Of a stretch of DNA of 64,000 nucleotides, positions 40,658-46,875 are shown piece by piece. Position numbers and translations under genes: made by a program. The DNA is from Deltaproteobacteria bacterium CG11_big_fil_rev_8_21_14_0_20_47_16 (lineage in GTDB: Bacteria > UBA10199 > GCA-002796325 > 1-14-0-20-47-16): NCBI GenBank assembly GCA_002796325.1, contig PCXA01000018.1, positions 62,001-126,000 on the forward strand. The letters are read 5' to 3'. Below the pieces are notes generated by a model, which ran no database searches, was not told the DNA's origin, and saw only the letters and a list, made by a program, of their open reading frames with translations. The stretch's first letter is position 1, and each line of letters begins with the position of its first letter.

Positions 40658-41818
40658 ATGTCCAACTGGCCCAATCGCCTGCTCAAATGGTTTGAAGCGC
40701 ATCAGCGCGAAATGCCCTGGCGCAGTAACCCCCAGCCGTATTGGGTCTGGGTCAGCGAAGCCATGCTGCAACAAACCCAGGTGGATACTGTCATTCCTTA
40801 CTTTAATCGTTTTATCCACAAATTCCCAACTGTTGACGCATTAGCGTCTGCCCATCAGCAAGAAGTTCTCAAGTTGTGGGAAGGTTTGGGCTACTATTCC
40901 CGTGCGCGCAATCTGCACAAGGCTGCACAAGTGGTGATGTCGCAATACAGGGGTCAGATCCCCAACACCTATGAGTCGCTCCAGGAACTTCCCGGCGTTG
41001 GGCCTTATATTGCTGCTGCGATTGCCAGCATCGCGTTTAACCTTCCCGTACCGGTGGTTGATGGCAATGTCTTGCGGGTCTTCGCACGGTTTTGGGGAAT
41101 CAAAGACGACATTCGTGATCCTAAACTGCGCGATGTGCTGTTCAATAAACTTACACCGTTCATTCAGAAGAGCAAACCGTCGCAATTCAATCAGGCCATG
41201 ATGGAACTGGGTGCACTCATCTGCACACCGCGCAATCCCAAATGCTGCGATTGCCCGCTCGCTAAAAATTGCATCGCGCTGCAAACACAACAAGCCGACA
41301 CGCTGCCGTTCAAATCCAAAAAGGCGCCTGTTCCGCATTACGATATTGCGGTGGGTGTGGTGTGGCAGGATGGTAAGATTCTCATTGGTCGCCGCAAGGA
41401 AACCCAGATGCTGGGTGGCTTGTGGGAATTCCCAGGCGGAAAGCTCAAGGCAGGGGAGTCTGCAGAAGATGCGGTGGTACGTGAAGTCCGCGAGGAAACC
41501 GGTCTTGCAACACGTGTGCTCCATCAATACTGCACAGTGAAGCATGCCTATACCCATTTCAAAATTACGCTAACAGCGTTTGCGTGCGAAGTAATTTCAG
41601 GAAAGCCGTCCCCTAAGTCGGCAGACGAACTTAAGTGGGTTGCACCCCAATCATTACAGGAGTATCCCTTTCCTACGGCCAACAAAAAGGTGATCTCAAT
41701 AATTGACCAGGGACCACTTTTTGGCATAGAAGCCCCACACCATGGAAAAGTTGCTACAAAAAGCCGTGGCCATGCAAGGCCTCATCAAGCGGTCGCTTCC
41801 GGTCGGTCCTCTTCATAA
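40658..41818 (+). CDS. mutY: adenine DNA glycosylase with C-terminal Nudix domain
   Basis: Removes adenine mispaired with 8-oxoguanine. The catalytic Glu lies in EAMLQQTQVDTV near residue 34. The helix-hairpin-helix LPGVGPYIAAAI near 109 and catalytic Asp in VVDGNVLRV near 134 follow. The [4Fe-4S] cysteines are spaced Cx6Cx2Cx5C at about 188-204. The C-terminal domain has a complete Nudix box, G(x5)E(x7)REVREETGL at about 259-282; in E. coli MutY this domain has lost these residues. 386 residues. The last 77 bp overlap the next gene. GAGGA precedes ATG at 40658. Confidence 0.95.
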   Translation: MSNWPNRLLKWFEAHQREMPWRSNPQPYWVWVSEAMLQQTQVDTVIPYFNRFIHKFPTVDALASAHQQEVLKLWEGLGYYSRARNLHKAAQVVMSQYRGQIPNTYESLQELPGVGPYIAAAIASIAFNLPVPVVDGNVLRVFARFWGIKDDIRDPKLRDVLFNKLTPFIQKSKPSQFNQAMMELGALICTPRNPKCCDCPLAKNCIALQTQQADTLPFKSKKAPVPHYDIAVGVVWQDGKILIGRRKETQMLGGLWEFPGGKLKAGESAEDAVVREVREETGLATRVLHQYCTVKHAYTHFKITLTAFACEVISGKPSPKSADELKWVAPQSLQEYPFPTANKKVISIIDQGPLFGIEAPHHGKVATKSRGHARPHQAVASGRSSS

Positions 41819-42920
41819 GTGGGTGGAGCAACACAGTATCGCGCATGAACTGGCCGACTCTGTGTCTGAGTTGTTACCGTGTGTCATTCCTGTTCATGTT
41901 CCTGAAACATCTTCCACTCCCGATGTCGGCCACACATTTCGTACTGTTGCTTGGAATGTCGACCGCGGGAAAAAAACCGATGAGATTATTGCAGAGCTTC
42001 AAACACACCCCGACCTTAAAGATACGGACTTTTTGCTTCTCACTGAAACTGATTGGGGTATGGCACGCTCTGGCAACCGAGATGTTACGGGGGATATTGC
42101 CAGGGCATTGGGAATGTATGGATGGTTTGCACCATCGTATCTCAATCTTACCACGGGGCATGGTGCAGAACGTGCCAAGGGTGGTGAAAATAAATATGGG
42201 TTACACGGCAATAGTATCTTGAGTCGCTATCCGCTCGAAAATTTGCGTGTGGTCAAACTCAAAAATGCGACTGATAAATTTCGCAGTATCGAAGTTCGAC
42301 TTGGGCAGCAAACAGTGCTCATGGGCGACTTCAAGTGTGCAAATCAAACGCTGAGTTTGGCATGTATCCACTTAGATGCGTATTCTTCACAACGTCAACG
42401 TGCTAACCAGTTGCGTACGGTATTGGAAGCATTGCCAAGCAATCATGCGGTATTGATTGGCGGCGATTTTAATACCAGCACCTATAACGCGAAGCATAGT
42501 TTCTACACAGGACTGGGGTTAATTTATAAAACCCTTTTCTTTGGTCCGGCACGCATCATGCGTAATCATTATCTTCACCCGTACAAGCGTTTCGATAAGC
42601 CTGTATTTCAGGAGCTGGAACGGTTTGGTTACAATTACCGGGATTGCAATGAAATGGGTGTGGGAACCTTTGATATTGTTTTGGGGGATGACAATATGAG
42701 GAGTATGGCATCCGACAAGTTTCCCCGGATTGTTGAAAAATATGTGGAGTGGGCAATCGGTTTAAATGGGGGAGCATGCAGTACTCGTCTGGATTGGTTT
42801 GCGGCCCGTCACATTCAGCCCAAAACGTCTAAAGTGGTACGTTTAACAGATGGTACAAGTAACCATATTAAAAAGAGATTGTCGGATCACCATCCCATTG
42901 CACTTCAATTCCAGTTGTAG
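41742..42920 (+). CDS. endonuclease/exonuclease/phosphatase (EEP) family protein
   Basis: 392 residues from ATG at 41742, which overlaps mutY by 77 bp and lacks a ribosome site; ATG at 41772 is also possible. EEP motifs: FRTVAWNVDRG near 67, LLLTETDWG near 98 with the metal Glu, VLIGGDFNTSTYN near 238, and the terminal SDHHPIALQF near 382 with Asp-His. These metal-dependent enzymes cleave phosphodiesters of nucleic acids or lipids. Overlap with mutY hints at a DNA-repair link but does not prove it. Confidence 0.85.
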   Translation: MEKLLQKAVAMQGLIKRSLPVGPLHKWVEQHSIAHELADSVSELLPCVIPVHVPETSSTPDVGHTFRTVAWNVDRGKKTDEIIAELQTHPDLKDTDFLLLTETDWGMARSGNRDVTGDIARALGMYGWFAPSYLNLTTGHGAERAKGGENKYGLHGNSILSRYPLENLRVVKLKNATDKFRSIEVRLGQQTVLMGDFKCANQTLSLACIHLDAYSSQRQRANQLRTVLEALPSNHAVLIGGDFNTSTYNAKHSFYTGLGLIYKTLFFGPARIMRNHYLHPYKRFDKPVFQELERFGYNYRDCNEMGVGTFDIVLGDDNMRSMASDKFPRIVEKYVEWAIGLNGGACSTRLDWFAARHIQPKTSKVVRLTDGTSNHIKKRLSDHHPIALQFQL

Positions 42921-42923
42921 TCT

Positions 42924-43526
42924 TTATTCAGCGACAGAATCTGAAAGACCTGAGCGTTCCAGGAAGGTGACAAAGCGTTCCATGTGCATACCGCTAAACT
43001 TTAGGCCTGCTTCATAGATGGGATTGCCGAAACGTTGGGGGATCATGCGATGCCACTGCACTGTTCCCTGAATAACAAAACCAGGGTCTTGAGCAAAACT
43101 GACTTCGATGGTTTCACGTGACTTGATTTTTTGTGTGGTGCGCAGTTTGAGACCATAGAGCGAAATGTCCTGCGTTTGCGCCGCGGCAGCATTATCGCCA
43201 TTCGATTTCTGAATGTATACCTCATTCACATAGGGAATACGTTTGACCCGACGTCGATTTTGAGTGGGCTTGTCTTGCTCTTCTGCGATCTCGGCTTGGG
43301 TTTCTGCAACATGGATGAGATAGATGCGATCGTAGGCTGCACGGCGCATAGGATCTTTCAAAACAGTATAAGCCTCATTGATAAGTAATGCTTCGTCTTC
43401 ACTGCCACCCAAGTCAGGGTGTTTTCGGGATTTTTGAAGTAGGTGTTTCCATGCCCGCTTTATTTCTTGGGGCTGCGCATCTACGGATACCTGCAAAACA
43501 GCGTAGTAATTGGGATAGCGCGACAT
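42924..43526 (-). CDS. J-domain protein fused to a PilZ-like domain
   Basis: 200 residues from ATG at 43526; an ATG at 43538 would add four. Residues about 2-68 form a J domain: NYYAVLQVSVDAQPQEIKRAW, the HPD tripeptide in RKHPDLGG, and NEAYTVLKDPMRRAAYDRIY. About 95-190 resemble PilZ: RRRVKRIPY supplies the RxxxR-type motif and DISLYGLKL the DxSxxG motif, both used to bind cyclic di-GMP. The HPD should stimulate DnaK. The pairing suggests a chaperone partner controlled by c-di-GMP; that link is inference. Confidence 0.85.
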   Translation of the reverse strand: MSRYPNYYAVLQVSVDAQPQEIKRAWKHLLQKSRKHPDLGGSEDEALLINEAYTVLKDPMRRAAYDRIYLIHVAETQAEIAEEQDKPTQNRRRVKRIPYVNEVYIQKSNGDNAAAAQTQDISLYGLKLRTTQKIKSRETIEVSFAQDPGFVIQGTVQWHRMIPQRFGNPIYEAGLKFSGMHMERFVTFLERSGLSDSVAE

Positions 43527-43618
43527 GGCTATGTCCATAACACATCAATAAGACTTTGCAACTGCCAATTCTTATGCTACACAAATTTTACAAATCTTAG
43601 GGTACACAAGGAGGGGTG

Positions 43619-45972: not shown

Positions 45973-46113
45973 AAAGCAGGGCGCGACGTAATCAATAACC
46001 ATGCTCATGACAAGGAAATTTTGATTCTCTGATATCCCAAAATGCCTCCTTTTTCGAAAAATATGATGCAGCTTTCTATATATATTGACCAGCCGATAGA
46101 ATATTGACATCGG

Positions 46114-46141
46114 GTGGGGGGCATACTAATCACGCCCCCAC
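46114..46141 (+). promoter_or_regulatory. G/C hairpin just upstream of the first Fe-S carrier gene
   Basis: GTGGGGG (46114-46120) pairs with CCCCCAC (46135-46141) around 14 bases. It ends about 7 bases before the AAGGAGG of the gene at 46161. It may affect translation or mRNA stability. No known Fe-S regulator site could be matched. Confidence 0.35.
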
Positions 46142-46160
46142 ACAAATAAGGAGGAAGTCC

Positions 46161-46484
46161 ATGGTTACACTCACCGAAAATGCAGTCAAAAAGGTAAAGG
46201 ATTACTTTAACGCAGACACTACTCTTAGCGGAAAAACCCTACGTATTTTTATCGAAGCGGGTGGATGCTCAGGGTATCAATATGGCTTCACATTTGATGA
46301 AAAGCGTGAAGGCGATCAGGAATTTGATAATCATGGAATCAAAGTGTTGGTAGATGCAGCCAGCATCCCAGTCTTGAATGGTTGCGTGATTGACTATGTT
46401 GAAGACTTCAACGGTGCTGGATTCTCTGTGAAAAATCCCAATGCCAAGAAGAGCTGCGGCTGCGGCAGTTCATTTGATGCCTAA
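46161..46484 (+). CDS. A-type iron-sulfur carrier protein (ErpA/IscA family)
   Basis: 107 residues from ATG at 46161 with a perfect AAGGAGG; a longer frame upstream has no ribosome site. The three cluster-binding cysteines of the family are present: GGCSGYQYGF near residue 35 and CGCGSSF near 98-100. The protein accepts or hands on Fe-S clusters to apo-enzymes. It is followed 19 bp later by a second, more divergent family member. Confidence 0.93.
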   Translation: MVTLTENAVKKVKDYFNADTTLSGKTLRIFIEAGGCSGYQYGFTFDEKREGDQEFDNHGIKVLVDAASIPVLNGCVIDYVEDFNGAGFSVKNPNAKKSCGCGSSFDA

Positions 46485-46503
46485 ACAAAATTAAGGGGAA
46501 TTC

Positions 46504-46875
46504 ATGAGTTTACTCACGATTAATGCAAAGGCCTCTGAGAAGGCGAAGACGATGCTTGGGCGTATTGGTAAGTCGGTGATGCGCCTTTCTGTGGCACCTT
46601 CTGGTTGTGCAGGTATGTCGTATCACTTCAGTCCCGAAGACGCTCCCGCCCCCAATGACATTATCGTTGAAGCGGATGGATTTTCAGTGGTTGTTGATCG
46701 TAAGTCGTTTCTCTATGTTGCTGGCTCAGAAATTATTTATGACGAAGGGCTAATGTCTGCTGGTTTTCGTCTGAATAATCCCAATGCCCAAGGCTGTTGC
46801 TCTTGTGGCACATCATTTTCAATTGAACCTTGGAGTGGTGAAAAGCAGGGATGCTGCTCAAAGCCAGGTGCATGA
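46504..46875 (+). CDS. second A-type (HesB/IscA-like) Fe-S carrier
   Basis: 123 residues. SGCAGMSYHF near residue 35 holds the first cysteine and CCSCGTSF near 99 the other pair. An extra C-terminal tail, EPWSGEKQGCCSKPGA, adds two cysteines not usual in this family. GGGGAA precedes ATG. The stop codon overlaps the deoC start as ATGA, giving translational coupling. The tandem with the gene at 46161 may form a hetero-oligomer. Confidence 0.9.
   Translation: MSLLTINAKASEKAKTMLGRIGKSVMRLSVAPSGCAGMSYHFSPEDAPAPNDIIVEADGFSVVVDRKSFLYVAGSEIIYDEGLMSAGFRLNNPNAQGCCSCGTSFSIEPWSGEKQGCCSKPGA

Follow-up and report, generated by a model that had tools for sequence, protein, structure and literature searches.

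The window, by which we mean the whole 64,000-nucleotide stretch of DNA that was analysed, encodes a 200-aa protein in which a J domain is fused to a PilZ domain (hereafter J-PilZ). The fusion is real and conserved, and it occurs in several bacterial groups when a form with a zinc ribbon between the domains (J-Zn ribbon-PilZ) is counted. Our preferred reading, to which we give a probability of about 55%, is that J-PilZ is a J-domain co-chaperone with client or partner recognition under c-di-GMP control, coupled to the single DnaK of the host. Its two biochemical components are each predicted from sequence: J-PilZ quite likely binds c-di-GMP, and likely, with slightly less confidence, stimulates DnaK. 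The features of the gene are as follows.

42924–43526, minus strand: J-PilZ gene, 200 aa, from the ORF list and orthologue alignment
43329–43511, minus strand: J domain (Pfam DnaJ, PF00226), from the Pfam profile, AlphaFold helices, and match to solved J domains
43413–43421, minus strand: HPD tripeptide, read directly from the sequence
43254–43325, minus strand: variable inter-domain linker, poorly conserved and gapped, modelled as disordered over residues 80–92 (pLDDT <50)
42978–43259, minus strand: PilZ domain (PF07238), from the Pfam profile, modelled beta barrel, and fold matches
43239–43253, minus strand: RxxxR half of the c-di-GMP motif (RRVKR, R92 and R96), from the sequence and invariant in the alignment
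43152–43169, minus strand: [DN]xSxxG half of the c-di-GMP motif (DISLYG, D120–G125), from the sequence and alignment

The longest ORF in the list spans 42924–43538 on the minus strand (204 aa), as an alternative in-frame upstream ATG at 43538 adds four residues. Orthologue starts match the second ATG, so 42924–43526 is the likely gene, in agreement with the span given by the sequence-only reading. A promoter and terminator scan returned signal no higher than in shuffles. The sequence-only reading had also proposed a J domain and a PilZ-like region in one protein, and both Pfam profiles exceeded their curated cut-offs. DnaJ matched residues 10–70 (E 2.8e-12, 47 bits against 27.8), and PilZ, whose recognition by a profile had been named beforehand as a point on which the idea could fail, matched residues 94–187 (E 4.2e-8, 33.9 bits against 22.5). 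The HPD, RxxxR-type (RRVKR), and DISLYG motifs are all intact, and with the five key c-di-GMP residues in place (R92, R96, D120, S122, and G125), the c-di-GMP motif is complete.

Full-length J-PilZ fusions were found in 14 of the 46 genomes of the host's class, two of which carry a second, more divergent copy. Against the genome contigs, a single-protein query returned zero relatives, and a profile search with a 9-row alignment gave matches. The named matches among GTDB genomes come from metagenome assemblies that bear the title Deltaproteobacteria bacterium or, in one case, Bdellovibrio sp. Across 14 aligned proteins, the J-PilZ of the window can be aligned over its full length with proteins of other families in the class (27–47% identity), which argues that the fusion did not arise by chance. 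A spurious fusion, whether an assembly artefact or a decaying gene, is refuted by this conservation and has a negligible probability; nothing was found in its favour, and the same fusion appears in 14 genomes from separate assemblies, in different neighbourhoods, and with zero internal stops. Outside the class, no full-length J-PilZ match was found in about 340 sampled bacterial genomes.

Conservation within the PilZ domain is concentrated at the ligand motif. The invariant positions among the 14 aligned proteins are R92, R96, S122, G125, V156, W158, G174, and F177, while position 120 holds Asp in 13 proteins and Asn in the remaining one. Of the five key c-di-GMP residues, four thus coincide with invariant columns, of which the 98-residue PilZ region has eight (hypergeometric p about 9e-5, indicative only because the aligned rows are related). 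On the J side, HPD is present in 13 of the 14 proteins, with HPE in the remaining one.

An AlphaFold2 model built with eight sequences had a mean pLDDT of 81. The modelled J domain has four helices (residues 7–11, 19–32, 43–57, and 59–83), and the PilZ part forms a six-stranded barrel followed by a C-terminal helix, with blocks over residues 101–190 at pLDDT 86–94. Confidence drops to about 59 around the HPD. The pTM of 0.49 leaves the domain orientation undefined, and the modelled inter-domain arrangement was therefore not used. When searched against the PDB with Foldseek, the PilZ part matched BcsA (cellulose synthase), VCA0042 (2rde), MrkH (5kgo), YcgR (5y6g), and PA0012 (8u0i), several with c-di-GMP bound, and the J part matched DnaJ J domains (4j7z). 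A profile search of PDB sequences gave matches through the J part only, except for one DnaJ chain that aligned slightly further.

In PilZ receptors, RxxxR in an N-terminal arm and [DN]xSxxG on the barrel grip c-di-GMP, and binding orders the arm. The flexible linker of J-PilZ stops directly at RxxxR. Because this arm directly follows the J-domain linker and is the part ordered on binding, we infer that the ligand may hold the J domain in a set position with respect to the barrel or to a bound partner, and in this way steer DnaK. In the proposed sequence of events, c-di-GMP would bind across RxxxR and DxSxxG, order the linker end, and alter either how the J domain is oriented or a partner-holding PilZ surface. 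At high c-di-GMP, the single canonical DnaK would be brought to the partner of J-PilZ. Should the coupling exist, the reach of c-di-GMP would extend beyond motility, transcription, and polysaccharide synthesis to direct control of protein folding or turnover by way of the Hsp70 cycle.

The host genome (1.95 Mb, 99.75% complete) was searched for the components of such a system. It encodes three PilZ genes only, one canonical DnaK, adjacent to a DnaJ gene, and two strong full GGDEF proteins with GGEEF sites; a third GGDEF protein is weak and degenerate. No EAL domain match was found in the host genome, and one HD-GYP response regulator has its HD and GYP motifs intact. By gene content, the host is predicted to make and degrade c-di-GMP. 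GGDEF was present in all 46 genomes of the class, so its presence does not separate J-PilZ carriers from non-carriers. With few PilZ and GGDEF proteins and one DnaK, this genome offers a simple setting, and the small protein should be easy to assay.

The host also carries a Pel-like exopolysaccharide locus (L177 3864–11049; G000:C1 about 471863–479048). The weak GGDEF protein also contains a GAF domain, and its gene is followed downstream by HEAT-repeat, PelF-like (DUF3492 plus glycosyltransferase), and PelG genes. From this combination it is probably the c-di-GMP receptor PelD, the names PelD and PelF both being inferred. Pel-type polysaccharide machinery and other c-di-GMP effectors are candidates only for the client of J-PilZ.

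PilZ proteins that lack the motif and act as scaffolds exist, the founding member from P. aeruginosa among them. J-PilZ could by analogy be a co-chaperone in which the PilZ barrel mediates protein interaction independently of any ligand, and a fully conserved motif is reported for just one of the two studied M. xanthus PilZ-DnaK proteins, CsdK2 (PMC10313047). We consider this reading quite improbable, however, since no part of the PilZ domain of J-PilZ is more conserved than the c-di-GMP motif and the host encodes enzymes of both c-di-GMP synthesis and degradation.

A second alternative concerns the J domain. It was observed that J-PilZ departs from the usual spacing, with two more residues between helix II and the HPD than canonical DnaJ. 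The same extension was seen in 7/7 J-PilZ proteins counted and 16/17 J-Zn ribbon proteins versus 7/70 other J domains of the same set, proportions that are not a census because the set was collected by motif patterns. The longer segment and the low model confidence there mean that canonical stimulation of DnaK by J-PilZ is not assured. PilZ might then bind c-di-GMP while the J domain acts to dock or localise the protein, or engages DnaK but does not productively stimulate its ATPase, a reading also favoured by the one HPE variant. Yet the HPD and the flanking J core are nearly invariant across deep divergence, a constraint that a J domain without function would not require, and one orthologue (L015) has the canonical helix II–HPD spacing. 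We regard this alternative as unlikely and retain the c-di-GMP-controlled co-chaperone as the preferred reading. A separate J-domain clade in Bacillota/Terrabacteria MAGs (L092, L095, L098, L099, L115) has the same two-residue extension, with HPDLGG or HPDVGG, and gave no PilZ hit.

Beyond the class, an arrangement of a J domain, two CxxC, and PilZ was found in records labelled Gammaproteobacteria, Desulfuromonadales and other Thermodesulfobacteriota, Acidobacteria, and Gemmatimonadetes. This J-Zn ribbon-PilZ form is present in several phyla. Like J-PilZ, the J-Zn ribbon-PilZ proteins begin with a J domain, in most cases bearing HPDLGG and the two-residue extension, and end with a PilZ that has both motif halves. 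Unlike J-PilZ, they have a zinc ribbon (the two CxxC) between the domains, and their PilZ is divergent and partly under the Pfam cut-off. In a Pfam check of ten, five were above the PilZ cut-off, four were below, and one was without a PilZ match at 0.01, while RxxxR and [DN]xSxxG occurred at the expected spacing in 14 of the 15 proteins examined. Neither Pfam nor NCBIfam yielded a model covering the complete J-zinc ribbon architecture. Members of the J-zinc ribbon family (L087–L106, L114), with or without PilZ, show HPDLGG and two extra residues before the HPD, and the two Nitrospirota forms seen are without PilZ.

In a J-domain tree, J-PilZ and 17 of the 18 J-Zn ribbon sequences grouped weakly (support 56/77) because the alignment has few columns. 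The grouping would suggest, rather than establish, common ancestry of the two sets of J domains. It is a tentative idea, and one we think doubtful as it stands, that J-PilZ and J-Zn ribbon-PilZ belong to a single family of c-di-GMP-gated co-chaperones that spans phyla and has its own J-domain subtype, through which the second messenger would send the general DnaK to selected clients.

J-PilZ shares a J domain with HPD with canonical DnaJ and CbpA (type A/B), but it is without their G/F region, zinc centre, and C-terminal substrate domains, having PilZ instead, and it is neither DnaJ- nor CbpA-type. As in YcgR-type receptors, a PilZ barrel with RxxxR and [DN]xSxxG lies behind an N-terminal domain, which in J-PilZ is a J domain and not YcgR-N. 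Precedents are found in M. xanthus, where 4 of the 24 PilZ proteins have a DnaK or DnaJ domain and so, like J-PilZ, combine PilZ and a chaperone-system domain in one protein (PMC8316039). The PilZ-DnaJ forms are known as survey architecture and are likened here by description, not by domain order or sequence, and no chaperone-related role has been shown for them (PMC8316039). Mutants in all 24 PilZ genes, including the ones with DnaK or DnaJ domains, showed motility or development defects for plpA, pixA, pixB, and pkn1 only, an outcome that counts against the reading of J-PilZ as a c-di-GMP-controlled co-chaperone (PMC8316039). CsdK1 and CsdK2 are studied PilZ-DnaK chaperones of M. xanthus whose client is the PilZ protein CdbS (PMC10313047). 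They resemble J-PilZ in coupling PilZ to the Hsp70 system, CsdK2 with the full c-di-GMP motif, but differ in that PilZ is fused to DnaK itself and not to a J co-chaperone (PMC10313047).

Overall, the sequence-only reading is supported in part. Its claim that a link between DnaK recruitment and c-di-GMP is not commonly described is true in general but not absolute, given the DnaK- or DnaJ-bearing PilZ proteins of M. xanthus, CsdK1/CsdK2, and J-Zn ribbon-PilZ. In the open-access literature searched for PilZ together with J-domain proteins, we found no study of a J-PilZ protein, and the M. xanthus papers were the only relevant ones. The architecture of PilZ with DnaJ or DnaK is already known and barely studied, and the J-PilZ of the window is a new, well-conserved member.

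Gene neighbourhoods were compared for 15 loci and the window. They vary by family and lack a shared client gene; an operon-derived client for J-PilZ was rejected, as no common partner emerged. The neighbours by family are epimerase/RsuA-type, rnc-era-der, TrmJ-like and TrkA-like, or MnmA-like genes, several of these names being readings of sequence starts and not profile results. In one family, a stand-alone PilZ gene with an intact motif lies directly upstream of J-PilZ on the same strand (L168 6618–6980, L170 5490–5918, L085 5369–5896), which hints that its product may be a PilZ partner of J-PilZ; the M. xanthus PilZ-DnaK chaperones likewise have a PilZ protein, CdbS, as their client. In another, J-PilZ is flanked by two GTPase genes, one era-like (preceded by an rnc-like gene) and one der-like (L172/L017 1465–2007; L169 5995–6546), and the L017 protein of this family has the HPD changed to HPE. 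Elsewhere in the window, two tandem neighbouring IscA/HesB-like ORFs lie at 46104–46875, of which Pfam confirmed the first only. Finally, a MutY-like gene (40658–41818) and an endonuclease/exonuclease/phosphatase gene (41742–42920) overlap at 41742–41818 if the latter uses its first ATG.
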